DNA of 37,206 nt from assembly GCA_023262005.1 (NCBI GenBank), contig JALREL010000211.1:1-37206 (forward strand), read 5' to 3'. A program made the position numbers and the translations under genes. This document shows, in pieces, positions 657-24,366 of the stretch (positions within the stretch are counted from its first letter, which is position 1; every line of letters starts with the position of its first letter). The notes below the pieces were generated by a model. The model saw only the letters and a program-made list of their open reading frames with translations, had not been told where the DNA came from and did not search any database. Origin of the DNA: Sphingorhabdus sp. (GTDB lineage Bacteria; Pseudomonadota; Alphaproteobacteria; Sphingomonadales; Sphingomonadaceae).

Positions 657-707
657 CTGTCATTTTTCTTTCTTGAACCCATAGCCGAACTGTCACGGTT
701 CCCTCGC
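657..707 (+). promoter_or_regulatory. Candidate Pho box upstream of TonB receptor/NPP operon
   Basis: Heptamers spaced exactly 11 bp apart read CTGTCAT (657-663), CTTTCTT (668-674), CCATAGC (679-685), CTGTCAC (690-696) and CCCTCGC (701-707). The first and fourth match the PhoB half-site CTGTCAT/C and are 33 bp, three repeat units, apart. The array ends 60 bp before the receptor start codon, a sensible distance for a promoter. A weak -10 (AAATTC, 708-713) begins 11 bp after the CTGTCAC repeat. PhoB control is inferred from the pattern only; the middle repeats are poor matches. Confidence 0.55.
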
Positions 708-766
708 AAATTCGAAACAGCACGCGCCTAGTGCCCCCCTCGCAACAATAACTGCGAGGGAAAACC

Positions 767-2989
767 ATGCGTACCGCCACTCTCTTCCTACTAACCACTT
801 CTGCGCTGTTTTCAGCGCCCGCCTTTGCCCAGGATGCCATTCCGACTGCAGACGAATCGACTGCGGAAAACGAGATTGTCGTCTTTGGCCAAGGCCAGAC
901 CCGCCAAGTTCAGGAACTGAAGACCGAGGATGTCACCATCCTCGCGCCTGGAACCAGCCCTTTGAAAGCAATCGAAAAGCTGCCCAGCGTCAATTTCCAG
1001 TCGGCAGATCCGTTTGGCACATATGAATGGTCCAGCCGCGTCACAATCCGTGGATTCAACCAGAACCAGCTTGGTTACACCCTGGACGGCATACCGCTCG
1101 GCGACTCTACATATGGTAACAATAATGGCCTGCATATCGGACGTGCGATTGCGCCCGAGAATATCGGCGTTACCCGCGTGTCACAGGGCGCCGGTTCGAT
1201 TGGCACCCAATCGACCAACAATCTGGGCGGCACGCTGGAGTTTTTCTCACTCGACCCCGTAGACGGTTTCGGAGCAGACGCTAATCTCACCTATGGTTCC
1301 GAGAACACCGTTCGCGCATTTGCGCGGGTGAATTTTGGCGAAAGCGACGGCATTCGCGGTTTCATTTCGGGCACCTATCATAATGCAGAAAAGTGGAAGG
1401 GTGGCGGCGACCAGCGCAACTGGATGATCAATGCCAAGGCGATCATCCCAGTCGGTGAAGCAGAGTTCGACGCCTATTTCAGCTATTCGGATCGCGCCGA
1501 GCAGGACTATCAGGATCTTTCGCTCGAGATGATCAGCCGCCTGGGTTATGATCACGATAACTACTCCCCCGATTATGCGACCGCCATCCGTGCCGCACAG
1601 GGCGTTTTCGTCGCTCCGATCAACAATCTTGACGACAGCTATTATGATGCATCGGGCCTGCGCAAAGATACGCTGGCGGCCTATGGCCTGACCGCACCGC
1701 TCAGCGAAGGCGTGACCTTCAAGATCAAGGCCTATTATCATGACAACACCGGCCAGGGAACGTGGGGCACACCTTATGTGGCAAGCCCGACCGGCGTACC
1801 CATGTCGGTGCGCACAACAGAATATGACATCCAGCGCGGCGGTGTATTCGGCTCGTTGGAAGCCGAGGTCGGCGATCACACGATCAGCGTTGGCGGTTGG
1901 TATGAGCATAACGACTTCACCCAAGCCCGCCGCTTCTACGCTTATGAAAGCCTTACCAACCCGGGCCGCGATCACCAGAAATTCATGCGCAACCCGTTCT
2001 TCACCCAATGGCTGTTCGATTTCAACACAGACACACTGCAATATCATGTGCAGGACAAAATCAGCATGGGCGATCTGACGATCAACCTCGGTTGGAAGGG
2101 CTTTCAAGTCAACAATGAGGCTGATCCGCGCGTCCAAGGTTCGCTCGCTGCCGGTAAGATCAAATCGCGCGACTGGTTCCAGCCGCATGCCGGTGTCGCT
2201 TACAAGCTGAGCGGCAATGCAGAGGTTTTCGGCGGCTTTACGCAGGCGACCCGTGCATTCGTCTCTTCAGCCACGAGCGGACCTTTTTCGACTACACAGG
2301 CGGGATTCAACGCGCTGCGGGCTCGCGGCCTGAAGCCGGAGGAATCTGATACCTATGAACTTGGTGCGCGCTTCAATAACACCACCTTCAATGGCGTGCT
2401 GGGTGTATATTATGTCAACTTCCGCAATCGCCTCCTCGGAATTCCGACAGGCCCAGGAATTGTTGGCAACCCTTCGATCCTTCAGAATGTCGGCTCGGTT
2501 CGCTCGCTTGGTTTCGAAGCTGCGGGCGATGTGCGCCTAGGCGGGGGGCTCACCTTGTTTGCATCGTATAGCTATAACGATGCGACCTATCGTGACGATG
2601 TCTTCGTTCCGGGCGTGGTTCCTGTGACGATCCCGATCAAGGGCAAGTCTGTGGTCGACACGCCGAAGCATCTGCTGAAAGGTGAGATCGCTTATGACAG
2701 CGACAGCCTGTTCGGCCGTATCGGCGCAAATTATATGAGCAAGCGTTACTTCACCTACACCAACGACCAATCGGTCGGCAGCCGGGTGATTGTCGATGCT
2801 ACGCTCGGCTATCGCTTTGATCTTGGCATGCGCAAGCCAGTCGAGGTCCAACTCAACGCCACCAACCTTTTCGACAAGCGTTATGTTTCTACGATCGGCT
2901 CGAACGGCTTTGGTAACAGTGGTGATAACCAGACCCTGCTCGCAGGCGCTCCGCAGCAGTTCTTCGTGACGGCAAAGGTCGGTTTCTGA
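767..2989 (+). CDS. TonB-dependent outer-membrane receptor (first)
   Basis: This 740-residue protein starts with a signal peptide cleaved after AFA (about residue 21), then a TonB-box-like EIVVFG at 36-41, a plug domain (about 50-165, with SRVTIRGF and YTLDGIPLGD typical of plugs) and a 22-strand type barrel ending in a terminal Phe (VTAKVGF). The ATG has a GAGGG Shine-Dalgarno seven bases upstream. Its stop overlaps the next start as TGATG, so it is translationally coupled to a periplasmic phosphodiesterase gene and probably imports that enzyme's substrate or product. The upstream Pho-like box suggests induction by phosphate limitation, making an organophosphate or nucleotide a reasonable ligand guess. 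The substrate cannot be read from the sequence; iron chelates remain possible. Confidence 0.9.
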   Translation: MRTATLFLLTTSALFSAPAFAQDAIPTADESTAENEIVVFGQGQTRQVQELKTEDVTILAPGTSPLKAIEKLPSVNFQSADPFGTYEWSSRVTIRGFNQNQLGYTLDGIPLGDSTYGNNNGLHIGRAIAPENIGVTRVSQGAGSIGTQSTNNLGGTLEFFSLDPVDGFGADANLTYGSENTVRAFARVNFGESDGIRGFISGTYHNAEKWKGGGDQRNWMINAKAIIPVGEAEFDAYFSYSDRAEQDYQDLSLEMISRLGYDHDNYSPDYATAIRAAQGVFVAPINNLDDSYYDASGLRKDTLAAYGLTAPLSEGVTFKIKAYYHDNTGQGTWGTPYVASPTGVPMSVRTTEYDIQRGGVFGSLEAEVGDHTISVGGWYEHNDFTQARRFYAYESLTNPGRDHQKFMRNPFFTQWLFDFNTDTLQYHVQDKISMGDLTINLGWKGFQVNNEADPRVQGSLAAGKIKSRDWFQPHAGVAYKLSGNAEVFGGFTQATRAFVSSATSGPFSTTQAGFNALRARGLKPEESDTYELGARFNNTTFNGVLGVYYVNFRNRLLGIPTGPGIVGNPSILQNVGSVRSLGFEAAGDVRLGGGLTLFASYSYNDATYRDDVFVPGVVPVTIPIKGKSVVDTPKHLLKGEIAYDSDSLFGRIGANYMSKRYFTYTNDQSVGSRVIVDATLGYRFDLGMRKPVEVQLNATNLFDKRYVSTIGSNGFGNSGDNQTLLAGAPQQFFVTAKVGF

Positions 2990-4332
2990 TGCGCGCGATG
3001 CCCCGCTTGATCGCCACGCTGGCAGCGCTCGTTCCAACCGCTAGCCAAGCCGAACCGGTGCTTTTGATCTCTATAGACGGGCTCCAGCCCGCCGATGTGA
3101 TCGAAGCCGACAAGCGGGGCATCGACATCCCCAATCTCAAGCGTTTTGTGAAAGAGGGCAGCTACGCCAGCGGCGTCGTTGGAGTATTGCCTTCTATCAC
3201 CTATCCCAGCCATGCCACTTTGGTGACAGGCGCCAGTCCCGCCGAGCACGGTATTATTGGTAATACTGGCTTTGATCCGCTGCAGATCAATCAGTCGGGC
3301 TGGTATTGGTATGCCAGCGACTACAAAGTTCCGACTCTTTGGGATGCGGCCGCCAAAGCCGGCCTTAAGACTGCAAATATACACTGGCCGGTCACGGTCG
3401 GCATGAACTCAATCCAGTATAACCTACCGCAAATCTGGCGCACCGGACATGAAGACGACATCAAGCTGATGAAGGTGCTGGCGACGCCTGGCCTCATCGA
3501 TCGGCTGGAGCAATCCATAGGCATACCATATGCGCAGGGCATCGATGAGAGCATAACTGGCGACGAGAACCGCGCCCGCTTTGCCGAAGCGCTGATTCTT
3601 GCGGAAAAACCGGATTTCATGACGGCCTATTTCACCGCGCTTGACCATGAACAGCATGAGAAGGGCCCGGACACGCCCGATGCGCGCAAAATTTTGGAGC
3701 GCATCGACGTCATCGTCGGGCGATTGGTCGCGGCCCAGATGCAGGCGCATCCGGACTCGGTTATTGCGATTGCATCCGACCATGGGTTTGCCGCCACCAC
3801 GACCGAGATCAACCTTTACCGGGCGTTCATCGATGCAGGTCTAATCACCATCGGCCCCGATGGAAAGATTGCCAGCTGGCTGGCGGCCCCATGGAATTCT
3901 GGTGGTTCGAGTGCAATCATGCTGTCCGATCCGCAAGACACAGCGCTCGTCGCCCGCGTCGCAGGACTGCTCGATAAGCTCAAATCGGATCCGGCCAACC
4001 GCATCGCAGCGATAGCAGATCGCAAAGCGATTGGTGCAATGGGCGGCAACCCCAAAGCGAGCTTCTATGTGAATTTTGAATTCGGCGCTTATGGCGGCGG
4101 CTTCAAAGGCAAGGATGCACCTTTGGTGGCAAAGTCGGCGAGCAAAGGAACACATGGCTATTTCCAGGCTGGAGGCCAGATGCGATCGGCATTCCTGATG
4201 ATGGGTAAGGGCGTGAAGCAGGGACATGACATGGGCGAAATGGATATGCGTTCGATTGCGCCGTTGCTCGCTCAGAAACTCGGCATCAATTTCAATGTTA
4301 CCGATAAACATGCTGCAATAAGCACGCCTTGA
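2989..4332 (+). CDS. Periplasmic NPP-family phosphodiesterase (alkaline phosphatase superfamily)
   Basis: The 447-residue product has a short signal peptide (residues 1-21, ending SQA). It carries the full metal and nucleophile set of nucleotide pyrophosphatase/phosphodiesterases: D30 in ISIDG, nucleophile T71 in PSITYPSH, D219 and H223 in ALDHEQH, D264 and H265 in SDHGF, and a late His in GTHGY near residue 385. These bind two zinc ions in known NPP enzymes and hydrolyse phosphodiester or pyrophosphate bonds of nucleotides and related compounds. The length is usual for bacterial NPPs. It overlaps the TonB-receptor stop by one base, so the two form one operon behind a Pho-like box. Exact substrate (NTPs, dinucleotides, glycerophosphodiesters) is not determined; phosphonoacetate-hydrolase-like activity is an alternative within the superfamily. 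Confidence 0.88.
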   Translation: MRAMPRLIATLAALVPTASQAEPVLLISIDGLQPADVIEADKRGIDIPNLKRFVKEGSYASGVVGVLPSITYPSHATLVTGASPAEHGIIGNTGFDPLQINQSGWYWYASDYKVPTLWDAAAKAGLKTANIHWPVTVGMNSIQYNLPQIWRTGHEDDIKLMKVLATPGLIDRLEQSIGIPYAQGIDESITGDENRARFAEALILAEKPDFMTAYFTALDHEQHEKGPDTPDARKILERIDVIVGRLVAAQMQAHPDSVIAIASDHGFAATTTEINLYRAFIDAGLITIGPDGKIASWLAAPWNSGGSSAIMLSDPQDTALVARVAGLLDKLKSDPANRIAAIADRKAIGAMGGNPKASFYVNFEFGAYGGGFKGKDAPLVAKSASKGTHGYFQAGGQMRSAFLMMGKGVKQGHDMGEMDMRSIAPLLAQKLGINFNVTDKHAAISTP

Positions 4333-4360: not shown

Positions 4361-4378
4361 GAGTCACGATTCTGTCAT
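4361..4378 (+). promoter_or_regulatory. Candidate two-repeat Pho box upstream of orphan response regulator
   Basis: GAGTCAC (4361-4367) and CTGTCAT (4372-4378) are 11 bp apart with a four-base spacer. The second half-site is a perfect PhoB consensus and the first a partial match. The pair sits 46 bp before the ATG chosen for the regulator. Only two repeats are visible and no convincing -10 follows, so this is the weaker end of the set in this window. Confidence 0.45.
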
Positions 4379-4423: not shown

Positions 4424-5095
4424 ATGACCGGATCTTCAACCGTGTTGTTTACGACACAGGATGCGAACCTATTCGTCGAATTGCAGCGCCAGCGTCCCGA
4501 CGTTGCCCTGTTGGCGATAGGTTCAACCATTCCCCCGTTGAATGCAGATGGCAGAATCTGGTGTTTCGTCGATTTCCTCCTACCTGAAGTTTCAGGGTTG
4601 GAAATGTGTCGGAGGTTGCGCACCAACCCGGCCACCGAAAAATCGCGGATAACGATTGTCTTCGACAGTGCAGACAAAGAGTTGATTCTGCGCGCACTTC
4701 ATGCTGGCGCTGATGACTATATCGTCGGGCAACTTTCTGCTGAAGAGGTGTTGCGGCGGATTCAGGATTTTAATCCGCCCAGCCTCACTCCCAAGGAAAA
4801 GATCGAACTCGGTGACATTATAGTCGAACCGATAGCCCACCGCGTCAGGTACCAAGGCAAGCGCGTGGAGCTCGCACCCAACGAGTTCCAGCTTTTGCTG
4901 CACTTCGCACAGAGCCCAGACCGCGTCTTCTCACGCGAAGATCTAATACAATCGCTGGGAAAGCCGGCAGATGATATCGAGAGCCGCACAGTCGATGTAT
5001 GGATTGGACGCTTGCGCCGCGCCTTCAAAAAGGTGGGAGCGCCCGAGGTCATCCGCACTGTCCGTCCGATTGGATATGTTTTCGAGATCCCCTGA
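4424..5095 (+). CDS. Orphan OmpR/PhoB-type regulator with degenerate receiver
   Basis: The 223-residue protein has a receiver-like domain (about 5-110) and a PhoB-type winged helix (about 127-223), whose recognition-helix region SRTVDVWIGRLRRAF resembles that of PhoB/KdpE. The acceptor Asp is kept (D50 in FVDFLLPE), but the other phosphorylation residues are altered. The N-terminal acidic pair is replaced by T11-Q12, the switch Thr/Ser aligns with F80, and the conserved Lys of the DYxxK motif aligns with G102. Such receivers usually cannot be phosphorylated normally. No histidine kinase gene is adjacent. ATG 4424 is preferred because a GGGGG tract lies about eight bases upstream; a TTG at 4379 would add 15 residues that do not fit a receiver and would place the start inside the Pho-like box. 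Its position between two putative Pho operons suggests it tunes that response. Confidence 0.8.
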   Translation: MTGSSTVLFTTQDANLFVELQRQRPDVALLAIGSTIPPLNADGRIWCFVDFLLPEVSGLEMCRRLRTNPATEKSRITIVFDSADKELILRALHAGADDYIVGQLSAEEVLRRIQDFNPPSLTPKEKIELGDIIVEPIAHRVRYQGKRVELAPNEFQLLLHFAQSPDRVFSREDLIQSLGKPADDIESRTVDVWIGRLRRAFKKVGAPEVIRTVRPIGYVFEIP

Positions 5096-5107: not shown

Positions 5108-5147
5108 CTGCAATCAAACTGCAACGCTACTGACTCGAACTGGTAAT
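5108..5147 (+). promoter_or_regulatory. Candidate four-repeat Pho box upstream of plcP-agt
   Basis: Four heptamers in 11-bp phase read CTGCAAT (5108-5114), CTGCAAC (5119-5125), CTGACTC (5130-5136) and TGGTAAT (5141-5147), with four-base spacers CAAA, GCTA and GAAC. A -10-like GGTAAT (5159-5164) begins 11 bases after the last repeat, the spacing expected of PhoB-activated promoters lacking a -35. The repeats use a CTGCAA form rather than CTGTCA. The site ends 71 bp before the plcP start. Confidence 0.65.
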
Positions 5148-5218
5148 GCGTTTCATGCGGTAATGTAAAACAACGAAGATAATGGAGGCGCATTACCGAT
5201 AAACGGAGGGCGCCGAAC

Positions 5219-6094
5219 ATGCGCGAAAGCATCGGATATCAGCCGGTCGCAATAGACACACCGCAAATGTCGCCTCCGGAATGGATTTTCCATCCCGAAC
5301 CAAAAAGTTTCCGACCCAAAGCAAAGTTCCGGACGATCTGGATTTCGGATATTCATTTGGGCACTAAAGGTTGCAACGCCGAGCTACTTCTGGATTTTCT
5401 CCATTCGGTTGAATGCGAAACGCTTTATCTGGTCGGTGATATCATCGACGGATGGCGGCTCAAGAAGGGCTGGTATTGGCCAGACAGCCACAATGAAGTC
5501 GTGCGACGAATACTAAAGATAGCGCATAAAGGTACACGCGTGATTTTTGTCGTCGGCAACCATGACGAGATGCTTCGCGACTATGCCGGTTTCAGCTTTG
5601 GCGGAATAACTCTGGCACGCGAGGCAATTCATGAAACTGCTGATGGTCGATTACTCCTGATAACCCATGGAGACGCTTTCGACGGTGTCGTGCTCTACGC
5701 CCGTTGGCTCGCCTTTTTGGGTGACCAAGCTTATAATTTACTGCTTCGCGCGAACGTCTGGATTAACTTCGTTCGCAAGAGGCTAAACCTGCCTTACTGG
5801 TCGCTCTCATCCTACCTTAAACGGCGCGTAAAAAATGCAGTTCAATATGTTTGTGCATTTGAGGATGCCGTAGCGCGCGAAGCAGCCGAACGCGGGGTTG
5901 ATGGTGTGGTTTGCGGCCATATCCATTGCGCCGAAATCCGCCGGATTGGGGACGTCACTTACTATAATGACGGTGACTGGGTTGAAAGTTGCACCGCTTT
6001 GACGGAGGCATTTGATGGCACGATCCAGATCTTGGATTGGGCCGAGCAACGCGCGGGCAACAAAGCAAATTTGTCTGAAAGCAGTATCGCATGA
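5219..6094 (+). CDS. plcP: PlcP-type metallophosphoesterase for phospholipid turnover
   Basis: The 291-residue calcineurin-like phosphoesterase carries the family metal motifs: D44 and H46 in SDIHLG, D74 in GDIIDG, N114-H115-D116 in GNHDE, H150 in THGD, and a CGHIH motif in the last quarter. It resembles the LpxH-like proteins of alphaproteobacteria. Its 4-bp ATGA overlap with a GT4 glycosyltransferase gene is the plcP-agt arrangement described in rhizobia and marine bacteria, in which PlcP removes phospholipid head groups under Pi starvation and the resulting diacylglycerol is glycosylated. There is no cleavable signal peptide, so action at the cytoplasmic face of the inner membrane is expected. 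The ATG has GGAGG about ten bases upstream. A UDP-2,3-diacylglucosamine diphosphatase annotation is likely in databases, but the context argues for PlcP. Confidence 0.8.
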   Translation: MRESIGYQPVAIDTPQMSPPEWIFHPEPKSFRPKAKFRTIWISDIHLGTKGCNAELLLDFLHSVECETLYLVGDIIDGWRLKKGWYWPDSHNEVVRRILKIAHKGTRVIFVVGNHDEMLRDYAGFSFGGITLAREAIHETADGRLLLITHGDAFDGVVLYARWLAFLGDQAYNLLLRANVWINFVRKRLNLPYWSLSSYLKRRVKNAVQYVCAFEDAVAREAAERGVDGVVCGHIHCAEIRRIGDVTYYNDGDWVESCTALTEAFDGTIQILDWAEQRAGNKANLSESSIA

Positions 6095-7167
6095 GAATTG
6101 CGATTGCCACTGATGCCTGGTTTCCGCAAACTAACGGCGTTGTCCGCAGCCTGGCTACGACGATTACTATCTTGCAGCGCCGGGGCTATGAAATCGAACT
6201 CATTACCCCGAACGAGTTTGTAACGGTGCCGACACCCGGTTATCGCGAAATTCGCCTCGCAGTTGCACCACGCTTCGGCGTGCGAAAAGCACTTGGAAAA
6301 TTCAGGCCAGATATCGTGCATATCGCCACCGAGGGGCCAATTGGTTGGGCAGCCCGCTCTTGGTGCTTGAGCCACTCCATTCCATACAGCTCGGCATTCC
6401 ATACTCGATTTCCGGATTATGCAGCGGTTCGCACCGGGCTTTCGCCGGATCGTTTTTGGCCCATAATGCGCAGGTTCCACAAACACTCACAGTCGGTCTT
6501 GGTATCCACGTACCGTTTGATGGACGAATTGAAACAGCACGGCATAGAGCGAACGCAGTTATGGTCTAGGGGCATTGATCGGCAACTTTTCCATCCCAAT
6601 CATGATCCCTTGCCAGAGCTAGCCATGCTGCCGAAACCAATACTCCTTTATGTTGGCCGCGTGGCCGTCGAAAAAAACCTCCCTGCCTTCTTGGAAACGG
6701 CAACAGCCGGCACGAAAGTGATCGTCGGCGACGGGCCAGCGCGCGAAAAATTGCAGCAAAAGCACCCGCAGGCGATCTTCTTGGGGCCCCTACATGGCGA
6801 GGCCCTTGCACGGGCTTATTGCAGCGCCGATGTCTTCGTTTTCCCAAGTCTTACCGATACCTTCGGGCTGGTGGTGATCGAAGCCCTGGCCTGTGGCACT
6901 CCCGTTGCCGCCTATCCTGTGCAAGGGCCAATCGACATACTGGGCCAATCAGCGCGCGGAATTTATGAGCAACTTGGCGCAGAGGCTGGCGCGCTCGACG
7001 AATCGCTTTCGCGGGCCATTACAAGGGCACAAAACGCTTCGCGCTCTGCCGCGGCGGAACTTGGAGCAAGCTTTGACTGGGAAATGTGCAGCGACCAATT
7101 TGTAAATGCGTTGCTCGATGCGATGCAGGGAACCATCGATCAAAGCGCTGAACTGCAAACGAGTTAG
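6091..7167 (+). CDS. agt: GT4 glycosyltransferase for phosphorus-free glycolipids (Agt-like)
   Basis: The 358-residue GT-B enzyme has the N-terminal acceptor domain signature FPQTNGVV (11-18), the nucleotide-sugar domain start LLYVGRVAVEKN (185-196) and an EX7E-type motif whose first acidic residue is D256 and second E264 (TDTFGLVVIEA). This subgroup includes GDP-mannose and UDP-sugar dependent transferases. The ATGA overlap with plcP means coupled translation, and the expected reaction is transfer of a hexose or hexuronic acid to the diacylglycerol made by PlcP. The donor (UDP-Glc, UDP-GlcA, UDP-Gal or GDP-Man) cannot be read from the sequence. The gene ends three bases from the convergent gspO stop with no hairpin between them. 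Confidence 0.78.
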   Translation: MRIAIATDAWFPQTNGVVRSLATTITILQRRGYEIELITPNEFVTVPTPGYREIRLAVAPRFGVRKALGKFRPDIVHIATEGPIGWAARSWCLSHSIPYSSAFHTRFPDYAAVRTGLSPDRFWPIMRRFHKHSQSVLVSTYRLMDELKQHGIERTQLWSRGIDRQLFHPNHDPLPELAMLPKPILLYVGRVAVEKNLPAFLETATAGTKVIVGDGPAREKLQQKHPQAIFLGPLHGEALARAYCSADVFVFPSLTDTFGLVVIEALACGTPVAAYPVQGPIDILGQSARGIYEQLGAEAGALDESLSRAITRAQNASRSAAAELGASFDWEMCSDQFVNALLDAMQGTIDQSAELQTS

Positions 7168-7170
7168 CCT

Positions 7171-15898: not shown

Positions 15899-18060
15899 GG
15901 CTTGACCTCGGATTCAGGCAGCACCTCTATGTTGCCATCGTCAGGGCGCGAGCGATCGGTCGAAGCACCGACTATGGTATCACCTGGCGCCAAAGTCGGC
16001 GCAACCGGGATGGGCGCACCCATATAATCACGAAACAACTGGTCGATCGACGGTTCAAGGTCGGGGTTTCGTTCAAGCTGCAGGCCGCGCACATAATCAT
16101 AACGGCGTGCAGTATGGATATCGCCATCTGCCCTGCTGCGGATCACGGTGGGGCGAATGAACACGGTAAGATTGGTCTTACGACGCGTGCGGCTTTTCGA
16201 TTTAAACAATTCACCCAAGAGCGGGATATCGGAAAGCAGTGGGATTTTCTCTATAGTGCGCCGCTCGTCGTCATTCAGCAGGCCGCCAATTGCAAGGATC
16301 TGGCCGTCGCCAACCGTCAGGGTGGTTTCGAATTCACGTTTGTTGAAGATTAAATCCGACGAACGGTTGGAGACCGGGCCTGCGACGCTCGAAACTTCCT
16401 GTCGGACGAAAAGCTTCACCTCTCCTTGCTGATTAACCTGAGGCATTACCTCGAGCTTGATACCGACTTCCTTACGCTGCACCGTTCGGAACGCATTGTC
16501 GAAGTTATCTGACAACGCTTCGCCCGTGGTGATGGGCACATCCTGTCCGACGAGGAATTTCGCCTTTTGGTTGTTGAGCGTCACAATGTGCGGCGTTGCG
16601 AGGATGTTGGATTCGGTATCGTTCTGAACTGCATTGATAATCGCGCCGAAAATTGCGTCTTTGCCTATGTCGAGTGCGATGCCACCAAAGCCGCCCGTCG
16701 CGTTCAGGATCGATTGGGCCGCAGCCTGCTGCAGGCTGTCGCCCAGCGGACTTCTTTGGGTTGTCGTTGTCGTATTGCCATTTACCGTGGTCGTTTCTCG
16801 GGCGAGTTCTTCCGCCGCGATAGCGCCTCCGATAGTCAGAATGCTGGGTACCGCGTTCGAATAATTGGTTGCCGCAAATGGAATATTCTCACCGCCCAGC
16901 AGGAATTGGACGCCCAGGCGCTTGGCAGCATCATTGCCGATCTCGACTACGATAGCCTCAACCAGAACTTGCTGCGGACGCGAGTCGAGTTGCCGAATAA
17001 GTTCGCCGAGCATTTTTTGCATATCTGCGCTCGCAGCGATGATGATTGCGTTCGTGCCTTCATAACGGCTGACTACCACCTTGCCGCGACCACCCAATGC
17101 GATCGCAGACCCGGTGACGGCAACTGGTGCGGCTGATGTCGCCGCCGGCGAAGCGCCCGCTGCTGCTGATGCAGGAGGTGTTACCGCTGATGCCGCTTGA
17201 TTGGCCCCGGGCGACGATGTGCCTTCCCCAATCAGCGACTGGATCGTGGGAAGCAAGGTTTCTGCATTGGCATATTCGAGCTGGTAAACCCGGATTTCAG
17301 CTCCCGATTCTGCGCGTTTGTCGAGTTCTTTTGCCATTGCGGCAAAGCGCGAGACCGATGTCGGATCGCCGCGCAGGGCAATGGCGTTGCTTGAATCGAT
17401 TGGAACGACGGTTACCGGTGGGCGCGCACCTTCGCCTGCAACCCCCTGGCCTGCCAAACCTTGTAAGGCGCTGGCGATTTCACGCGCGCCAGCATTATCG
17501 AGTGCGACGACTTGGGTTGCCGCACTGTCGCGGTCAATTTGCACGACAAGATCACGTATGCGCCGGATGTTGTCAGCATAATCAGCGACCACCAAACTGT
17601 TCGCATTGCGGTTGGCAGTGAGCGAGCCCTCGCGACTTACAAGCGGTCTCAATGTTTCGACCGCTGACGAAGCGTCGATCGATTTTAGCCTGAAAACTTC
17701 GGTCACAAACTGGCTACCCAGAGCTGTCTTCGAACCGACGCGTGTCGGTTGGGTTGCTGCTCCTTCAGCTTGCTGGATGCGATAGCCGCCGCCTCGAAGC
17801 GGGATGGCGACCAAACCATTGGCACGCAGTGTCGACAGAAAGACTTCGAAATATTCAGAGCGGCTCAAGGAGCGATCGGTGACAACAGACACTTTTCCCT
17901 GGACACGGCTGTCGACGATGAAGGTCTGCCCGGTAACACGCGCTGCATCTTGCACAAATGCGCGGATATCTGCGTCGCGCACGTTCAAGACGTGTTGCGC
18001 TTGGAGCGAAGTGGCCACCAGCATGGCAGCGAGTGAAAGGGTAAGGATGCTCTTTTTCAT
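15895..18060 (-). CDS. gspD: T2SS outer-membrane secretin GspD
   Basis: The 721-residue secretin has a signal peptide ending LQA (about residue 21), an N0 domain (25-95), N1-N3 domains and a C-terminal secretin domain with the classic VGQDVPITTG and the GGLL followed by IPLLSDIPLLGELF. An Ala/Pro/Ser-rich insertion of about 40 residues interrupts the N2-N3 region near 280-325. The start ATG overlaps the gspC stop (TAATG). No gspS pilotin or gspAB gene is present in the window, so targeting of the secretin may use another lipoprotein. Confidence 0.96.
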   Translation of the reverse strand: MKKSILTLSLAAMLVATSLQAQHVLNVRDADIRAFVQDAARVTGQTFIVDSRVQGKVSVVTDRSLSRSEYFEVFLSTLRANGLVAIPLRGGGYRIQQAEGAATQPTRVGSKTALGSQFVTEVFRLKSIDASSAVETLRPLVSREGSLTANRNANSLVVADYADNIRRIRDLVVQIDRDSAATQVVALDNAGAREIASALQGLAGQGVAGEGARPPVTVVPIDSSNAIALRGDPTSVSRFAAMAKELDKRAESGAEIRVYQLEYANAETLLPTIQSLIGEGTSSPGANQAASAVTPPASAAAGASPAATSAAPVAVTGSAIALGGRGKVVVSRYEGTNAIIIAASADMQKMLGELIRQLDSRPQQVLVEAIVVEIGNDAAKRLGVQFLLGGENIPFAATNYSNAVPSILTIGGAIAAEELARETTTVNGNTTTTTQRSPLGDSLQQAAAQSILNATGGFGGIALDIGKDAIFGAIINAVQNDTESNILATPHIVTLNNQKAKFLVGQDVPITTGEALSDNFDNAFRTVQRKEVGIKLEVMPQVNQQGEVKLFVRQEVSSVAGPVSNRSSDLIFNKREFETTLTVGDGQILAIGGLLNDDERRTIEKIPLLSDIPLLGELFKSKSRTRRKTNLTVFIRPTVIRSRADGDIHTARRYDYVRGLQLERNPDLEPSIDQLFRDYMGAPIPVAPTLAPGDTIVGASTDRSRPDDGNIEVLPESEVKP

Positions 18061-18878
18061 TATTGTTCCAGAACCAAGGCGACAGGCAGTTTTTGTCCGC
18101 CGCGTTCGATTTCGAGTGACAGGCGCGCGCCAGGGCGAATTTGGGCGGCAAGTTCGGCGGCGGCGGTGACGGGGCGGCCATTTACGGAGACAATGATGTC
18201 TCCTTTTTGCAGCCCCGCTAGCCGCATCATGGTTCCGTCATCCTTGGCAGACACCACCAAACCCGTGGTTTTTCCGCCTTCATTGCGAGGGGCCAGATTT
18301 ACTGATTGTTGCAGCGTCTGAGCATTGAGCTGTGCGCTGGAATCGCTCGATGCAGGTTCAGGCGCAATTGGTTGCGGTGTTACGTTTTCGGCAGGAACCG
18401 ACTGGTCGATGAACAGCTTTTCCAGCACGCCATTGTTGCTGATCACGACATGGTCGAACGCCACCGAATGCAGAACGGCTCCCGGCATGATGGTTTCACC
18501 GACTGACCAACTGTTCTGGACGCCATCCGCACCGGCGATGATCGCCGATCCCCCGCCCGAGGCTTCATTGGTGCGAATGCCAAATAGCGTAAGCGGAAGC
18601 GACGTGACGACTTCGGAACCGGAAGCAGCCTGTTGCGATCTGAAAAAGGGATCGAAGCTGCTGAAAAGTGCAGGACGCTCGGAAGCGGGAACGATGTCTA
18701 CGGCAGTTTGCTTCCAATCGCCTATAGGGGCTAAAGGGGTAAGGATCGTCCAAGTCAGCCGCGCAGCTTGAACGGCGACGAAGACCATGGCCAAAGCGAT
18801 CAGGACATCGCCAGACGAAACGCCTCGCACCATTTTACTAAACGGCGATACGACCCTTTTTGCAACTTCACCGTACAT
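18060..18878 (-). CDS. gspC: T2SS clamp protein GspC
   Basis: The 272-residue inner-membrane protein has one membrane helix (about 24-45), a homology-region domain (about 75-155, LPLTLFGIRTNE onward), a linker rich in Pro, Ser and Gln, and a C-terminal PDZ domain (about 200-268, LQKGDIIVSVNGRPV). GspC links the inner platform to GspD and takes part in substrate recruitment. It is the first gene of a 13-gene operon in the order C-D-E-F-G-H-I-J-K-L-M-N-O, all with overlapping ends, and it has a strong Pho-like box 39 bp upstream. Confidence 0.93.
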   Translation of the reverse strand: MYGEVAKRVVSPFSKMVRGVSSGDVLIALAMVFVAVQAARLTWTILTPLAPIGDWKQTAVDIVPASERPALFSSFDPFFRSQQAASGSEVVTSLPLTLFGIRTNEASGGGSAIIAGADGVQNSWSVGETIMPGAVLHSVAFDHVVISNNGVLEKLFIDQSVPAENVTPQPIAPEPASSDSSAQLNAQTLQQSVNLAPRNEGGKTTGLVVSAKDDGTMMRLAGLQKGDIIVSVNGRPVTAAAELAAQIRPGARLSLEIERGGQKLPVALVLEQ

Positions 18879-18916: not shown

Positions 18917-18956
18917 AAGTCAGTTCGATGACATATAGGTTTCAGTTTGATGACAG
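18917..18956 (-). promoter_or_regulatory. Candidate four-repeat Pho box upstream of gspC
   Basis: Reading the minus strand, heptamers in exact 11-bp phase are CTGTCAT (18950-18956), CTGAAAC (18939-18945), ATGTCAT (18928-18934) and CTGACTT (18917-18923), with spacers CAAA, CTAT and CGAA. The first and third are canonical PhoB half-sites. A -10-like GATAAG lies at about 18909-18914. This is the best match in the window and places the entire T2SS operon under likely PhoB control. Confidence 0.75.
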
Positions 18957-19011: not shown

Positions 19012-21726
19012 TCAGAACTCTACGTCAATCCCCAAGCTGAATGAACGGCCCGGCTTGTACAGATTGTAGAAAATCCGGTTCTGCCCGCTTTGCTGGAATT
19101 CGCGGTATTTGGTGCCTGTAAGATTACGCGCTTCGAATTTGAGTTCGAATTCCTTGCCACCGATCTTGATGCCCTGGCGAGCGACGAAATCAAGTTCGAA
19201 CCCGGGGCGCTCGACAATATCGGGCTGGTTGGCAGCACCGCGACTGGTCACGCGATCCGATGCATAATTCAGCAACAGTGTCTGCGCCGAAAGGCTGTCG
19301 GTATCTTCGAGTCCGATTTGCAGGTTGACCAGATGGTCCGATTGACCAGTCAACGGAGCACCATCGCGGAAGAAATCGGAAGCATTGGTCGATGAGGCGG
19401 CAAATACCGCCACCGGATCACCCGGCTTCACGCTGATCTTCGATTTCGAAAAAGTGTAGTTGGCAATTGCCACCAAACGCCGCGTCGAAAAGAAACCCGA
19501 TTCGGACAGGCCCGAAAGGTCGAAATATTTCTGCACCTCGAGCTCGGCACCGTAAAGCTTTGCCTGCGGCGCATTTGCGAAACTGGTGACGACGCTGTTG
19601 TCGTTAAAGCTGGAATAAGCTTCGATCGGCTTGTCGATCTTTTTGAAAAAGCCTGCGACCGAAAGCCGCTGGTCACGATCGAAATACCATTCATAACGTG
19701 CTTCGGCGTTGTACAGCTGGCTATCTGTCAGCAATGGGTTGCCACGATATTGCCGGTTGCTGTCCGGGTCGAAGAAGGTCTGGTAAATGAGCTCGCGGAA
19801 TTGAGGGCGGGCGATGGTCTTTGAACCGCTGACGCGCAATTGCATCTGGTCAGCCAGCTCCCAAGTCAGGGTCGCGGCAGGCAACCAATATTTGTTGTTC
19901 AACGAAGTCGATGCGAGGACTGCCGTCGGAGTCGTAAACACCGGCACAGCTTCCACCGATTGCTTCGCTGCCTCGTAACGTACGCCGATGTTCAGATTGA
20001 TTTCAGGCGTAATGTAGGCGCGAATTTGGCCGTAAGCCGCATTGTTCACCAGCTTGGCATCGAAAATCGGATTGGCTTCATTGGTATCGATAAGACCGAT
20101 GTCGTAGAAATTGATCACATCGGGCTGGAGAAGGTAATCCGGGCGGAACAGGGCCACGGCCGTCGGGAAAGTGGTCGGTGCGGTAAACAGGAAGTCCCGC
20201 TTTTCCGTACGTCGGGCAGTATCCGTATAGGAATAACCGACCGTAGCGGTAACATCAGGAGTCACATTGTACGAAAGATCGAGGCCGCCGGACCAGAGAT
20301 TCTCGTTCAGGTCCGAATAGCTGATTTCAGCACTGCCCTGCTGACCGTTGTTCAGGCGATTGATGAAATACTCGCCATAGGGGTCGGTCGCGACATTGCT
20401 TCGAAAATATTCGAAGCTGAGTTCACCCGGCGCTTCCCGCTGCGAATTGGCAAATGCGAGGCGCACGTCGAGCTTGACCTCATCCGCCAAACGGAATTCT
20501 CCGACGAATTGCGATGTTACCAACTGGCGTTCGAACCAGCCAGTATCCTGCTGCTGCAGGGTCGCTATGGGCGATGTCGTCTGCCGGGTGCCCACACCAA
20601 GGCGGGTCTGTTTGATGGTGTCGCGTATGAACACATTGGTCCAGCGCAGTTTCTGGTCACCCGCTTCAATGCCAAAGCCGACCATGGCATTGGCGACTAT
20701 ACGGTTGTCCGTGAGCACGCGGCGGAAATCGAGTTCCTTTTCCGACAGGTCAACCGACGAAGCTGTTTGCTGGATGGTGTCGCGGGTACGCCATTTGTTG
20801 CTGTAGCCAGCAGCGGCAAGAATGCCGAGAGTAGCATCATCGCCGATTTCAAAGCTCGTGCCACCTGAAAGGCTCAACGATCCGTTGGCGGGCAAATGCT
20901 TGTTACGTTGGATCACGCCGTTACGACCGTTGACCAATTCCGACGCGATTGCCTGCGTGTCGACGCCGCCCTCACTGATGCGAAGGCCGCTGTTCAAATA
21001 GGCGCTCAAGGCTGGCGGAACAGCGCGATTGTCATTGGTAAAACCGGTCCAATCAAGCGAACTGCCATAATGGGTATAGCCCAGCTGGTTCGTGGTTTCG
21101 CTGTTGCCGCTGATGCTGCCCCCAACGCTGAAGAACGATTCTTCGGGGATAGCCTTGGTTGTGAGGTTGATCACACCGCCACCAAATTCGCCAGGGAAGT
21201 TGGCCGAATAAGACTTTTGGACCAGCGACGAGGCGATCAAACTTGTCGGGAACAGGTCGAGCGGGACAACGCGGCGGAGCGGCTCGGGGCTGGGTAGGGG
21301 TGAACCATTGAGCAGCGCGAGTGAATAGCGATCGCCCAAGCCGCGAACATACACATAGCCATTGCCGACAACGCTAAGACCCGTAACGCGGCCAAGCGCA
21401 CCCGCAATATCGCCTTCGCCCGTGCGCGCAATATCTGCAGAGGAAAGCAGCGAGACAACTTGTGGCGCCGCTTTCTCGACATTCTGCAACCTGCGGCCCT
21501 GAACGACGATTTCCCCGCCGGGGATAGATACGTCGATACCTTCATCCGGTGCTTCTTCGGTGACTGCCGAACCATCGGTGGCAGCTTCCACCGGTTGCTC
21601 CGTCGCGCCCTCTTCGGCAACACCAGCTTCGGCTGGCTCTTCAACGGCCTGCGCCAACGCCAGCGACGGTGTGACGAGTGCGGATGTCACAAGCAGGAGG
21701 CTCAAGCGCCCAAAAGGCTTCAACAT
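19012..21726 (-). CDS. TonB-dependent outer-membrane receptor (second), T2SS-linked
   Basis: The 904-residue receptor starts at ATG 21726 (AAGGGA Shine-Dalgarno) with a signal peptide ending LAQA (about residue 26). A 40-residue acidic Glu/Ala-rich stretch, a TonB-box-like GEIVVQG (71-77), a plug (about 85-205, with VYVRGLGDRYSLALLNG) and a barrel ending in Phe (LGIDVEF) follow. It lies between a large lipoprotein gene and gspC; a lipoprotein-receptor-gsp order is, from memory, also seen around elpS in Caulobacter. Its role there is unclear; uptake of material released by secreted hydrolases is plausible. A strong terminator precedes its start, so expression depends on read-through from the lipoprotein gene or on a promoter I could not identify. 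Confidence 0.9.
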   Translation of the reverse strand: MLKPFGRLSLLLVTSALVTPSLALAQAVEEPAEAGVAEEGATEQPVEAATDGSAVTEEAPDEGIDVSIPGGEIVVQGRRLQNVEKAAPQVVSLLSSADIARTGEGDIAGALGRVTGLSVVGNGYVYVRGLGDRYSLALLNGSPLPSPEPLRRVVPLDLFPTSLIASSLVQKSYSANFPGEFGGGVINLTTKAIPEESFFSVGGSISGNSETTNQLGYTHYGSSLDWTGFTNDNRAVPPALSAYLNSGLRISEGGVDTQAIASELVNGRNGVIQRNKHLPANGSLSLSGGTSFEIGDDATLGILAAAGYSNKWRTRDTIQQTASSVDLSEKELDFRRVLTDNRIVANAMVGFGIEAGDQKLRWTNVFIRDTIKQTRLGVGTRQTTSPIATLQQQDTGWFERQLVTSQFVGEFRLADEVKLDVRLAFANSQREAPGELSFEYFRSNVATDPYGEYFINRLNNGQQGSAEISYSDLNENLWSGGLDLSYNVTPDVTATVGYSYTDTARRTEKRDFLFTAPTTFPTAVALFRPDYLLQPDVINFYDIGLIDTNEANPIFDAKLVNNAAYGQIRAYITPEINLNIGVRYEAAKQSVEAVPVFTTPTAVLASTSLNNKYWLPAATLTWELADQMQLRVSGSKTIARPQFRELIYQTFFDPDSNRQYRGNPLLTDSQLYNAEARYEWYFDRDQRLSVAGFFKKIDKPIEAYSSFNDNSVVTSFANAPQAKLYGAELEVQKYFDLSGLSESGFFSTRRLVAIANYTFSKSKISVKPGDPVAVFAASSTNASDFFRDGAPLTGQSDHLVNLQIGLEDTDSLSAQTLLLNYASDRVTSRGAANQPDIVERPGFELDFVARQGIKIGGKEFELKFEARNLTGTKYREFQQSGQNRIFYNLYKPGRSFSLGIDVEF

Positions 21727-21750
21727 TGCAATTCCCTTATTCCCGATTGG

Positions 21751-21789
21751 AAAAAGGGGTGAGGTGCAGCCTGTGGCACACCTCACCCC
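21751..21789 (-). terminator. Intrinsic terminator between lipoprotein gene and TonB receptor
   Basis: On the minus strand an 11-bp perfect stem (GGGGTGAGGTG with CACCTCACCCC, 12-base loop, 21756-21789) is followed by five Ts (21751-21755). It begins 17 bp after the lipoprotein stop and ends 24 bp before the receptor start. It should reduce receptor expression relative to the lipoprotein, as commonly seen when a secreted product is needed in larger amounts. Confidence 0.8.
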
Positions 21790-21806
21790 GTTCAGCTTTG
21801 ATTGCT

Positions 21807-23378
21807 TCAGAACGTCGGAAGCGAGGTGCACAGACCCGTGTTGCCCGTGCCAAAGTCGGCAGTGGCGCTGTTACAGGTCCAGGTGCGGTACCAAGTATCA
21901 TTCGCATCGCGAACGGCACCGATATAGGTCACTGCGTCAAAGAAGGACGACAGGCTCGTCGGGTTGAAGGCCGAAATCGCGGTTTCAGCGGCGCCGTTGA
22001 TGAACAGCGAGCTGAACGACGGGGTGAAGGCATCGTTGTTGTTGTTCGAACCCGAACCGAAAATTGCCTGAACCTGCGCTTCGGTCACGCCGTTACGACC
22101 CGAATATTTGGTCGCGCCACACTGCATTGCAACCGAACGGAAGATGGGTGAACCCACTTCGTCAATCGCCGCATCGGCAGTCAGCGAGGCCGTTTGCGGG
22201 CGGCTGATGGCAAGGCAAGTTGTGTTCGGTGCCGAGACCACACCATTCACCAGTGCATAATCGGTACCGCCGCGCAGCAGGATCGCCGTCTGGTTGCCCG
22301 GCGTTGCACGCTGGAAGAAGGCGAAGTTCGAGATGCGGGTGTTCTGACGCGGCGTGTTGCCATCAAGGGCGTTGTCCGAGTCTGCTTCGATGATCGAGTC
22401 TCCGGCAGCCGAACGCTGGACGGCGATGACATATTGGAAGTTGGCTTTGACGCCGACGTCGGTGTCGATGCTGTCGTCTTCGGCGCCGACAGAGATGAAA
22501 TACTTCATGTTGACGTTGCCGCCGAAGAATTCCGCACCATCATCCGAGCTGTTGAACACCTGGATGTTGTTGAGGGTAGTACCCGATCCGACGCCGCCGG
22601 TGGTGAGAGCTTGCAATTCGCTGTTGCCCGAAAGCACGAAGCCCGAGTAGCGGATTTGGACAAAGCTCATACGACCGCTGTTATCGGCAGGGTTGGCACC
22701 ACCATAAAGAGCGGGATCAACAGCGCCTTCGACCTGGCGTTCGCACGCAGCGGTGCCCGGCGTTGCAGCAGGTGCGGCACAATCGGTAACCGGTGCGCGG
22801 CCCGACAGCACAACACCGCCCCATTGACCGCTCGAATTGTCGGTGTTGAGGCCAAGGACATTGTCTCGGCTGGTAAAGATGATCGGAAGCGCAGCCGTGC
22901 CAACTGCATTAATACGGTTGCCACGATTGACGTGGAGCCACGAAACGCCGGTGCCACCGAATACAATCACGCCGGGTTCGATGGTAAGCGTTACGACGTT
23001 GTTCGTCGAAGCCGCACCCTGATCGGTACCAACGTCTACACGGCCACCGAGGCGATAGAGAAGACCTGCAACCTTGGGGAGGGTCGAACTGACATTGATG
23101 CGCGCAGGCAAGGTGCAAACGCGATACGTTCCGGTCGGGCCGGTGATCGTTCCCGAATCAGTCAAGCCTTGCGGATCAGCAATCGTCGGGCAACCACCAG
23201 CGGGGGTTACGGCTGCGGGCGGCGGGGGCGGCGGTGGGGGCGGCGGCGGCGGAGCCGGATTGTTGATTGTGATGTTTCCGCCGGTTCCCGGCGAAGCAAT
23301 ATCATCAGCGCCGCAACCAGCCAGCAAACTGGCCGCTGCTGTTACATAAACAATCCCACGCAACTTTGGGTCTATCAT
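21807..23378 (-). CDS. Large beta-helix-like lipoprotein, candidate T2SS cargo (ElpS-like by context)
   Basis: The 523-residue protein starts at ATG 23378 (GGAG seven bases upstream). It has a lipoprotein signal peptide with the lipobox LAGC (Cys22, Gly at +2), then a Gly/Asn/Pro linker containing 12 consecutive prolines (near residues 43-54). The remaining 460 residues are rich in Asn, Gly, Ser and Thr with repeated short beta-strand-turn units (for example SGNSELQALTTGGVGSGTT and NNIQVFNSSDDGAEFFGGN), suggesting a right-handed beta-helix; I see no catalytic signature. It sits next to a TonB receptor and the T2SS operon behind a Pho-like box. Caulobacter ElpS, an extracellular lipoprotein secreted by the T2SS on Pi starvation, has a similar genomic setting, but homology needs an alignment. 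Low charge and high Asn/Thr content fit an exported surface protein. Confidence 0.72.
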   Translation of the reverse strand: MIDPKLRGIVYVTAAASLLAGCGADDIASPGTGGNITINNPAPPPPPPPPPPPPAAVTPAGGCPTIADPQGLTDSGTITGPTGTYRVCTLPARINVSSTLPKVAGLLYRLGGRVDVGTDQGAASTNNVVTLTIEPGVIVFGGTGVSWLHVNRGNRINAVGTAALPIIFTSRDNVLGLNTDNSSGQWGGVVLSGRAPVTDCAAPAATPGTAACERQVEGAVDPALYGGANPADNSGRMSFVQIRYSGFVLSGNSELQALTTGGVGSGTTLNNIQVFNSSDDGAEFFGGNVNMKYFISVGAEDDSIDTDVGVKANFQYVIAVQRSAAGDSIIEADSDNALDGNTPRQNTRISNFAFFQRATPGNQTAILLRGGTDYALVNGVVSAPNTTCLAISRPQTASLTADAAIDEVGSPIFRSVAMQCGATKYSGRNGVTEAQVQAIFGSGSNNNNDAFTPSFSSLFINGAAETAISAFNPTSLSSFFDAVTYIGAVRDANDTWYRTWTCNSATADFGTGNTGLCTSLPTF

Positions 23379-23437
23379 CCTGATTCTCCGCAATAAACTT
23401 TGCCTATGGCAGGCATTGAGACATGCGGGCGCAAATC

Positions 23438-23471: not shown

Positions 23472-23506
23472 CTAAATGAAAGATGTGACTCTATTGTTCG
23501 AAGTTG

Positions 23507-23546
23507 AAGACAGTTCGATGAACAATCTATTGCAGTTTCGTTACAA
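23507..23546 (-). promoter_or_regulatory. Candidate four-repeat Pho box upstream of lipoprotein gene
   Basis: Minus-strand heptamers in 11-bp phase are TTGTAAC (23540-23546), CTGCAAT (23529-23535), TGTTCAT (23518-23524) and CTGTCTT (23507-23513), with spacers GAAA, AGAT and CGAA. A -10-like AATAGA (23490-23495) begins 11 bases after the last repeat, the spacing expected for PhoB activation. It lies in the gap between the TPR gene and the lipoprotein gene, giving the latter its own promoter. Confidence 0.65.
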
Positions 23547-23591
23547 GGCCATCATTGGCCCGCGCAACACTGCCTTACTTCACCAAATGAA

Positions 23592-23960
23592 TTATTGTCC
23601 GAGCGATTTCAGAGCAAGCGCTGCAACCTTGCGCGAGTTCATGATCTGGCCGTTGGAAAGCACCAGATCGAATTCCTCCTTGCAGTTTGCAGCAGCAAGA
23701 AATGCCTGCCGCGCTTTTTCCTTGTCTCCGAGGCGCGCATGGGCACGGCCAAGGTTGATCAGGCGCGCGGGATCGTTGGGCGCGGTGGATTTGTCGGTCA
23801 ATATTTGATTGAGTGCGCGATGGTTGTCATTCGCCATCAACGCCTCAAATCCGAGTGAGCCCCGCTCATAACCAATCTCAGCATTCTGAGATTGCGCATA
23901 AGTTGCCGACGACATACCCATCGCGGCCACCAGTGCGGCGCTTAGAATGAGATGTTTCAT
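23592..23960 (-). CDS. Small exported TPR protein
   Basis: This 122-residue protein has a signal peptide (about 1-22, ending TYAQ) and at least one tetratricopeptide-like helix pair (INLGRAHARLGDKEKARQAFLAAANC, about 68-93), flanked by further helices. ATG 23960 is favoured: GGAGAGGAG lies about six bases upstream, with an in-frame GTG one codon before. TPR proteins mediate protein contacts; here a periplasmic scaffold or chaperone for the neighbouring receptor, lipoprotein or T2SS is a guess from position. A distal Pho-like box and a downstream terminator suggest a monocistronic unit. Confidence 0.75.
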   Translation of the reverse strand: MKHLILSAALVAAMGMSSATYAQSQNAEIGYERGSLGFEALMANDNHRALNQILTDKSTAPNDPARLINLGRAHARLGDKEKARQAFLAAANCKEEFDLVLSNGQIMNSRKVAALALKSLGQ

Positions 23961-24366
23961 CACGATTCTCCTCTCCAGATCGATGATTGTTACATTATCA
24001 TTACACCAATGGATCGAGAAGAAATTATTTTCTGGTTCTTTCTAAAATACAGAGATTACATTATAAAAATGCGTAAGTGAAAGCCATGGTGCATTATCAT
24101 GTCTTTTATATTACTCTTATTTGACGTTAATATGACAAGTAATATGTTGTTGGTGTCTTATAGACTCGCCATGCTGAAAGCCGTCGCAAGTGCTGTTGCG
24201 CGTTCAAGGGGTCACATGTTCGAGTGATCCAGGCGCACCATTTATCTTCAACATCGGGCCAACATTGCCGCTTACATTCCGCCAACGACTGTTTTTTCGT
24301 CTGGTCGGAAACTGTCACCCCAAAAAATGGGAACCTATTTGTTTTAAGCAAGCTATAGAGCCCATC
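23961..24366. other. 406-bp AT-rich divergent intergenic region
   Basis: This is the longest stretch without a gene. It separates the leftward TPR gene from the rightward tamA gene. The part from about 23,985 to 24,150 is clearly AT-rich compared with the rest of the window and holds the three-repeat Pho-like array for the TPR gene. The tamA-proximal half contains no strong -35/-10 pair that I can defend and no open frame with a ribosome binding site. A tRNA-like 3' fragment at 24,218-24,240 was examined and rejected. Confidence 0.6.
24093..24138 (-). promoter_or_regulatory. Candidate Pho-type promoter for TPR gene
   Basis: Minus-strand heptamers in 11-bp phase are TTGTCAT (24132-24138), ACGTCAA (24121-24127) and GAGTAAT (24110-24116), with AT-only spacers ATTA and ATAA. 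A good -10, GATAAT (24093-24098), begins 11 bases after the third repeat. The TPR start codon is 133 bp further on, giving a leader of about 125 bases. Only the first repeat is close to consensus; the AT-rich phasing and the -10 spacing make the case. Confidence 0.5.

Follow-up and report, generated by a model that had tools for sequence, protein, structure and literature searches.

A phosphate-starvation gene island in Sphingorhabdus, headed by phased PHO arrays and very probably controlled by PhoB, with a family of PhoB-like pseudo-receiver regulators

Introduction

The locus described here raises the question of whether neighbouring genes of phosphate (Pi) starvation type, brought together on one contig of Sphingorhabdus sp. 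(Sphingomonadaceae), are governed as a unit by the response regulator PhoB. The whole stretch of DNA analysed, hereafter the window, is the 37,206 nt (37.2-kb) contig JALREL010000211.1 (C81 in our numbering) of assembly GCA_023262005.1, which is 82% complete and comprises 2.55 Mb in 234 contigs. On the forward strand it encodes a TonB-dependent receptor (TBDR1), a nucleotide pyrophosphatase family protein (NPP), a PhoB-like regulator referred to as REG, a PlcP-like protein and an Agt-like protein. On the opposite strand lie the type II secretion system (T2SS) genes gspO to gspC, a second TonB-dependent receptor gene (TBDR2), a gene for an ElpS-like lipoprotein (elpS) and a gene for a small TPR protein.

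A first-pass annotation had divided this region into six transcription units, each preceded by an array of Pho-like boxes, and all six units and their arrays were recovered in the same positions. We conclude that the island is very probably under PhoB control, with induction on Pi limitation and binding of PhoB as predictions from sequence. The conclusion is based on six arrays of the type found at the genome's own pst operon, positioned upstream of TBDR1-NPP, REG, plcP-agt, gspC-O, elpS-TBDR2 and the TPR gene.

Results

PHO arrays of the pst type are concentrated in the island

A matrix for the 7-base PHO unit was seeded with the known CTGTCAT and trained on 5-kb stretches upstream of pstC from 20 relatives, with the window sequence excluded. 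The best 16 of the 20 pst loci were kept per round, and the four lowest (11.8 to 16.3 bits) were omitted. A search for training arrays upstream of phoR failed because most relatives have the array elsewhere, and the whole 5-kb stretch was used. Within the pst loci, a phoR-like kinase gene is headed by an array in the window's own genome (L101, contig C163) and in genome G001 (L210); in most other relatives (L211-L229) the best pst array is located elsewhere upstream of pstC and does not head the phoR-like kinase gene. The genus may hold two types of pst operon.

As a control on the choice of seed, training was repeated from 120 heptamers, 60 of them permuted and 60 random. Of these seeds, 94 brought none of the six promoters into the top five, whilst the six that brought in at least three had all arrived at the same motif, shifted in register; two further seeds, with two promoters in the top five, showed no convergence to it. 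As the same motif was reached from other seeds, the procedure found it without being told.

The matrix gave the genome's own phoR-pst operon 25.8 bits over three units and 32.2 bits over four. When both strands of the window were scanned for four units in 11-bp phase, the five best matches were all on the coding strand of a gene of the island. The highest score belonged to the four-unit array upstream of gspC (18917..18956, minus strand; 21.9 bits). It was followed by the arrays of the TPR gene (24055..24138, minus strand; best units at 24138, 24116 and 24061; 18.3 bits for the first four units), elpS (23485..23546, minus strand; units at 23546, 23535, 23524, 23513, 23502, which is weak, and 23491; 18.2 bits for the first four), TBDR1 (657..718, plus strand; units at 657, 668, 679, 690, 701 and 712, strong only at 657 and 690; 16.0 bits for the first four) and plcP (5108..5169, plus strand; units at 5108, 5119, 5130 and 5141, with a weak one at 5163; 12.3 bits for the first four). 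The next four-unit match, at 8.9 bits, overlaps the elpS array. Upstream of REG is a two-box site (4361..4378, plus strand), which had the best two-unit score of the window (17.9 bits).

Comparison of box density with the genomic background, proposed with the first-pass annotation as a check, came out in favour of the Pho reading: four-unit matches of at least 12 bits numbered five in the 37.2 kb of the window and two in 358 kb of background from the same genome, one of the two being the pst array itself. The arrays likewise surpassed randomised DNA, since 100 first-order Markov sequences with the dinucleotide frequencies of the window contained a mean of 0.06 matches and at most one, and the wrong spacings of 8, 9, 10, 12, 13 and 14 bp gave no four-unit match of at least 12 bits in the window. 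Two- and three-unit scores were less discriminating (rate ratios of 1.9 to 9.6). A scan of the genome with the plain two-box consensus, allowing up to three mismatches, was too weak to be used as evidence, with 134 matches against 43 for the backwards pattern.

Upstream regions were also scored individually. A simple open-frame gene rule yielded 348 regions in which the gap was 50 bases or longer, 13 from the window and 335 from 641 kb of background, about a quarter of the assembly; REG is not in this ranking because its called gap is under 50 bases. Ranks 1 to 7 were taken by pst, gspC, the TPR gene, elpS, TBDR1, another TonB receptor gene on contig C138, and plcP, and arrays of at least 12 bits were present in 5 of the 13 window regions and 2 of the 335 background regions. 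The presence of five window upstreams within the top 7 of 348 has a hypergeometric probability of 6.3e-7, a post hoc value in that the cut-off of seven was set with the ranking already known. The background includes contigs picked for consensus matches or pho genes, which makes the ranking test conservative. On C138 (L109:147-7784), the TonB receptor gene with its PHO array of 15.3 bits is located 2.5 kb from a polyphosphate kinase gene, the array of which is weak (rank 11 of 348, with a low score).

Arrays are conserved in relatives, and promoter geometry varies between units

Orthologous upstream regions were scored with thresholds that we set at 8, 10 and 13 bits for four, three and two units, respectively. 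In that order, arrays were detected upstream of 35, 35 and 25 of 41 gspC orthologues, 58, 47 and 28 of 75 elpS orthologues, 14, 13 and 10 of 19 TBDR1 orthologues, 23, 35 and 21 of 44 plcP orthologues, and 7, 16 and 23 of 39 TPR orthologues. At none of the three settings did a single operon-internal gene pass, amongst 40 gspD, 27 gspF, 19 NPP, 64 TBDR2 and 43 agt upstreams. Taking the best of four wrong spacings, four-unit arrays were found in no gspC, elpS, plcP or TPR upstream, in 1 of 19 for TBDR1, in 2 of 40 for gspD and in 1 of 43 for agt. Four-unit passes on the opposite strand (6 of 19 at TBDR1 and 23 of 39 at the TPR gene) are put down to divergent neighbours in many genomes.

It had been claimed that several of the arrays are followed by a −10 element beginning 11 bases after the last repeat. 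Amongst distinct tails in the relatives, TA stands at offset 11 after the last unit in 30 of 34 for gspC, 22 of 36 for plcP and 22 of 61 for elpS, where the remaining offsets average 0.5, 0.9 and 2.2, but this is rare for TBDR1 (1 of 16), REG (3 of 20) and the TPR gene (0 of 22). In the relatives the claim thus stands for gspC and plcP, in part for elpS, and not for the other three, a mixed picture for the arrays as a whole. In the window, gspC alone has a TA (18906-18905) directly after its four scored units. At TBDR1 (729-730), plcP (5180-5181), elpS (23474-23473) and the TPR gene (24044-24043), a TA comes into register only after more in-phase units, weak ones among them, are added to the array, a freedom that makes chance agreement easy; no in-register TA follows the box pair of REG in the window. 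The arrays are indeed in 11-bp phase, but the word 'strict' applied to them by the first-pass annotation is too strong, as several in-phase units are weak.

In 22 of the 39 TPR orthologues, a PHO-type box pair was also observed 20-25 nt before the start codon (23989..24006, minus strand, in the window). This pair is too close to the gene for an activating array, and may represent an operator or the marker of a very short leader.

Alternatives to control by PhoB

A number of observations weigh against control of the whole island by PhoB. TPR orthologues mostly fail the four-unit test and have no TA in register, the plcP array scores lowest of the five, and only two boxes precede REG. Wrong spacings let some orthologue upstreams pass, the most being for elpS with two units (11 of 75, with 0 of 75 for four units), and the orthologue rows include related genomes, some of them twice, which were not made independent. 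In Caulobacter crescentus, the receptor adjoining elpS is reported to be constitutive, and gspE and gspL were up only 1.7-fold in poor medium (PMC2996285).

The weakness of some in-phase units and the commonness of two-box matches would be expected if the arrays were chance matches in AT-rich intergenic DNA. We consider this scarcely credible in the face of the wrong-phase, random-sequence and internal-gene controls, and of orthologue conservation in phase upstream of gspC, elpS and plcP. It is improbable, to a lesser degree, that the main reader of the arrays is a different member of the OmpR family, one that recognizes a similar motif: the genome does contain further OmpR-type regulators and a second REG, but the matrix derived from pst loci ranks the genome's own pst array first of 348. 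At the level of sequence, the Pho reading of the first-pass annotation is upheld by arrays that score with the same matrix as pst, on the right strand and in the right phase, and that are kept in relatives. The genome also encodes a true PhoB, over the model cut-off, on contig C122, and pstC on C163 with a PstS-like gene beside it.

Gene content of the island

TBDR1 (767..2989, plus strand; PF00593/PF07715) is followed by NPP (2989..4332, plus strand), a member of the type I phosphodiesterase/nucleotide pyrophosphatase family (PF01663, E 7.9e-45). Downstream of REG are a PlcP-like metallophosphoesterase (5219..6094, plus strand; PF12850/PF00149), named on the basis of its pairing with a glycosyltransferase, and an Agt-like family 4 glycosyltransferase (6091..7167, plus strand; PF13439/PF13692). 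The metallophosphoesterase and glycosyltransferase pair was recognized by Pfam, and neither protein reached the cut-off of an NCBIfam model; we classify the two as a predicted phospholipase C and glycolipid synthase of PlcP-Agt-like type. The 13 T2SS genes, gspC to gspO, are all present by profile match (7171..18878, minus strand), with 12 of the 13 over a Pfam or NCBIfam cut-off and gspL at 61.7 bits against a cut-off of 65.

The order elpS, TonB receptor gene, gspC onward is present in the window. The product of the first of these genes (21807..23393, minus strand), previously described as a beta-helix lipoprotein, is ElpS-like by sequence. It has a lipobox, LLAGC, read by eye, and a beta-strand-rich model for which a fold search returned only weak beta-helix matches (best E 0.022). 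The protein had no match in PHROGs. Close behind the lipid anchor it carries a stretch of roughly a dozen prolines (window positions about 23220-23260). TBDR2 (19012..21831, minus strand; PF00593/PF07715, with TIGR01782 below cut-off) follows. In a metagenome-assembled genome (MAG) labelled Caulobacter vibrioides (L054), an ElpS with 60% identity and a TBDR2 with 59-65% identity are followed by gspC to gspK, the comparand being this MAG and not Cc0170 itself.

The ElpS search yielded 55 loci, 15 of them short on the side downstream of TBDR2. A gsp gene follows TBDR2 in 19 of the 55 (including L054, where the receptor match is split), and REG follows it in 11. In five loci (L037, L040, L041, L049 and L083) the gsp genes are upstream of elpS, not downstream of TBDR2, and the linkage of the T2SS to elpS seems to be kept through rearrangement.

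Upstream of elpS is the gene for the small TPR protein (23592..23963, minus strand), which has a signal-peptide-like N-terminus. A tamA-like gene and tamB were found downstream of the island, and their upstreams had no array amongst the best matrix matches of the window.

Two layouts of the island in the genus

The genus shows two arrangements of these genes. In layout A (the window, G001, G032 and G043), plcP-agt faces gspO and the T2SS genes lie between plcP and elpS; TBDR1-NPP is missing from this locus in G032. In layout B (15 stretches), elpS-TBDR2-gsp, preceded by the TPR gene, runs one way and plcP-agt runs the other, with TBDR1-NPP ahead of plcP in 10 of the 15; one stretch is without a TPR match. 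By hand count, plcP and elpS were within 17 kb of each other on one contig in 22 of the 32 genus genomes having both, whilst in the other ten some pairs are split by contig ends and some lie far apart. Outside the genus, the linkage was found in none of 13 genomes of the family and in none of 15 from other families, whose ElpS matches are remote. The union is thus common, but not fixed, in the genus. In two more records, L033 and L066 (the latter from Chakrabartia godavariana), TBDR1 and plcP were present within 10 kb of elpS.

REG belongs to a family of PhoB-like pseudo-receivers

REG (4424..5095, plus strand) was assigned the ATG at 4424 in preference to a TTG at 4379, which directly adjoins the upstream box. 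Against the PhoB model it scored 141 bits, with a cut-off of 296, and the match begins only at model position 51. We assembled a family of 27 relatives, the REG of the window included. All 27 have lost the receiver Thr and the receiver Lys (G in 25), and the acidic pair is not kept, which sets the family apart from canonical PhoB; the receiver Asp is kept in 25 of the 27 (E in two). Two positions beyond the missing Lys, 22 of the 27 carry A, L or V, residues described as favouring active conformations (PMC12632262). The REG family formed one side of a branch with support of 100/100 in a 34-sequence tree, which included only five PhoBs and two other regulators.

An AlphaFold model of REG built with nine sequences (mean predicted local distance difference test, pLDDT, 83; predicted TM-score, pTM, 0.52) shows a receiver fold without helix alpha-2, and a winged helix; at this pTM, the arrangement of the domains is unsure. 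Superposition of the modelled winged helix on PhoB in complex with pho box DNA gave 1.4 Å over 98 columns. REG therefore has the make-up of the pseudo-receiver OmpR/PhoB proteins, namely a receiver fold without the catalytic residues, and a winged helix.

The DNA-binding domain carries near-fixed changes (E. coli register): all 27 members have G for W184 and W for H198, 26 have K for G185, and 23 have G for R200. The arginines R201, R203 and R219, which we take to be DNA contacts of PhoB, are kept in 27, 27 and 25 of the 27, and the positions of E191 and D192 largely stay acidic (D in 22 and E in 19 of the 27). In E. coli PhoB, activation is lost on any of four substitutions, W184R and G185R amongst them (PMC3973317); the available text of PMC3348028 contains none of the residue terms sought.

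REG genes are themselves headed by PHO arrays: at the thresholds given above, 22 of 26 scorable genes have one (one of the 27 was dropped at a locus edge), in comparison with 3 of 26 passing at any of six wrong spacings and one of five PhoB genes. These figures replace an earlier count of two-unit arrays, 18 of 28, which was contaminated by loci that hold a true PhoB. REG adjoins plcP in four genomes of the genus and elpS-TBDR2 in eight other genera of the family (L129 to L136), so that two different neighbourhoods tie it to Pi scavenging. In three genus genomes (L126, L127 and L128) it lies beside what appear, from reading frames and N-termini only, to be other TonB receptor genes. REG was absent from all 15 layout-B stretches, and is therefore not a constant part of the island. 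A second REG gene of the window's genome, on contig C170 (L102:6851-7570), has its own PHO array (rank 10 of 348 with four units, rank 2 with two) and lies beside genes for an SBF-family transporter and a ManC-like nucleotidyltransferase.

Discussion

A model for the response of the island

The PhoB control favoured here suggests the following course of events. As Pi falls, PhoR would phosphorylate PhoB, the true PhoB being the one encoded on C122, and phosphorylated PhoB would bind the arrays in place of a −35 element. Pi would be freed from extracellular esters by NPP and the cargo of the T2SS, with ElpS as a surface helper, the products would enter via the two TonB receptors, and phospholipids would be replaced by glycolipids via plcP-agt. 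REG would be made by the same PhoB switch, without the usual phosphorylation chemistry, and would probably bind DNA constitutively and modulate PHO promoters as a brake or a booster.

Brake or booster

REG is probably PhoB-induced and phosphorylation-independent. That it acts on PHO promoters at all we regard as reasonably probable; the choice between brake and booster is a guess from residues, and the remaining weight goes to other targets.

It is possible, though we hold it with less than even confidence, that constitutively active REG, induced by PhoB, occupies PHO boxes, its own included, without recruiting the sigma-70 RNA polymerase, and so damps or times the response. The changes of W184 to G and G185 to K sit exactly where substitutions abolish activation by E. 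coli PhoB (PMC3973317), and REG genes carry PHO arrays themselves. The presumed DNA-contact arginines are kept, and the modelled winged helix fits the PhoB-pho box complex. However, the largely kept acidic places at E191 and D192 argue against a total loss of sigma contact, the H198 and R200 changes may alter the target of REG, and the island occurs without a linked REG in layout B. Furthermore, the loop differs greatly from one OmpR/PhoB protein to another, and some of these proteins touch RNA polymerase in other ways (PMC3960148). Almost as likely as the brake is a feed-forward role, in which REG, induced by PhoB and independent of phosphorylation, activates the neighbouring receptor-elpS and lipid genes by contacting RNA polymerase through another surface. 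The pseudo-receiver ChxR activates transcription without phosphorylation (PMC3960148), the A, L or V found after the lost Lys is consistent with an active conformation (PMC12632262), and REG is a neighbour of elpS-TBDR2 across eight other genera. Yet the two loop residues are replaced, and elpS upstreams carry arrays at loci where no REG was seen (L031, L035 and L036, for example).

We propose that REG is a PhoB-induced modulator of the response, and perhaps a brake on it. A bolder reading, to which we give less than even odds, would make the REG family a second PhoB that arose in sphingomonads: paralogues independent of phosphorylation and induced by PhoB, with a conserved DNA-reading surface and a natural counterpart of the positive-control mutations of E. 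coli PhoB. Such proteins would compete with PhoB for PHO boxes and so hold back genes of secretion, uptake and lipid replacement that are costly to express, and with which they travel.

Relation to known systems

The first-pass annotation held that the individual parts of the island are known elsewhere, and the literature bears this out for elpS-receptor-T2SS (PMC2996285), the Caulobacter PhoB regulon (PMC11208175) and plcP-agt with Pho boxes (PMC4796936). In Caulobacter, ElpS is produced when Pi is scarce, and its gene lies with that of a TonB receptor next to gspC-N, as is stated for Sphingomonas alaskensis too (PMC2996285); the available text of PMC9123166 contained no T2SS or ElpS data for Sphingomonas. 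The window shares with cc0170-cc0184 of C. crescentus the order of lipoprotein, receptor and T2SS, but adds TBDR1-NPP, REG and plcP-agt, and its gspO has the same direction as the other gsp genes instead of running against them (PMC2996285).

The Caulobacter PhoB regulon includes a T2SS, TonB receptors, a nucleotide pyrophosphatase and a phospholipase C and, like the island, a lipid glycosyltransferase (PMC11208175). In Caulobacter, in contrast, the glycosyltransferase acts on ceramide, and one contiguous locus of such content is not described in the text available (PMC11208175). Clusters of plcP and agt, and predicted Pho boxes in plcP clusters, are also known, with Erythrobacter sp. NAP1 named as having agt downstream of plcP (PMC4796936). 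The window has the same metallophosphoesterase then glycosyltransferase with a PHO array upstream, whereas the pair is joined to elpS-T2SS in this genus, and in none of the 13 genomes from other genera of the family or the 15 from other families in which both genes were found, the ElpS match being remote in the latter. REG, for its part, shares with the pseudo-receivers ChxR and HP1043 a receiver fold without full phosphorylation chemistry and an intact winged helix (PMC3960148, PMC12632262). It differs from them in mostly keeping the Asp place, in the absence of helix alpha-2 from its model and in its PHO arrays.

A literature search, in which subscription papers were mostly out of reach, returned among the matches listed no report of this combination in sphingomonads, of plcP joined with a T2SS, or of a Pho-linked pseudo-receiver. 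Within that scope, what appears to be new is the union of known Pho parts, common in one genus in two permuted layouts, together with the 27-member clade of PhoB-like pseudo-receivers.

The island is a testable unit in which lipid replacement, ester cleavage, outer-membrane uptake and protein secretion are perhaps tied to one nutrient signal. The REG family could help to answer the question of how pseudo-receivers act, as its members would be made on demand by a canonical regulator whose sites they may share.

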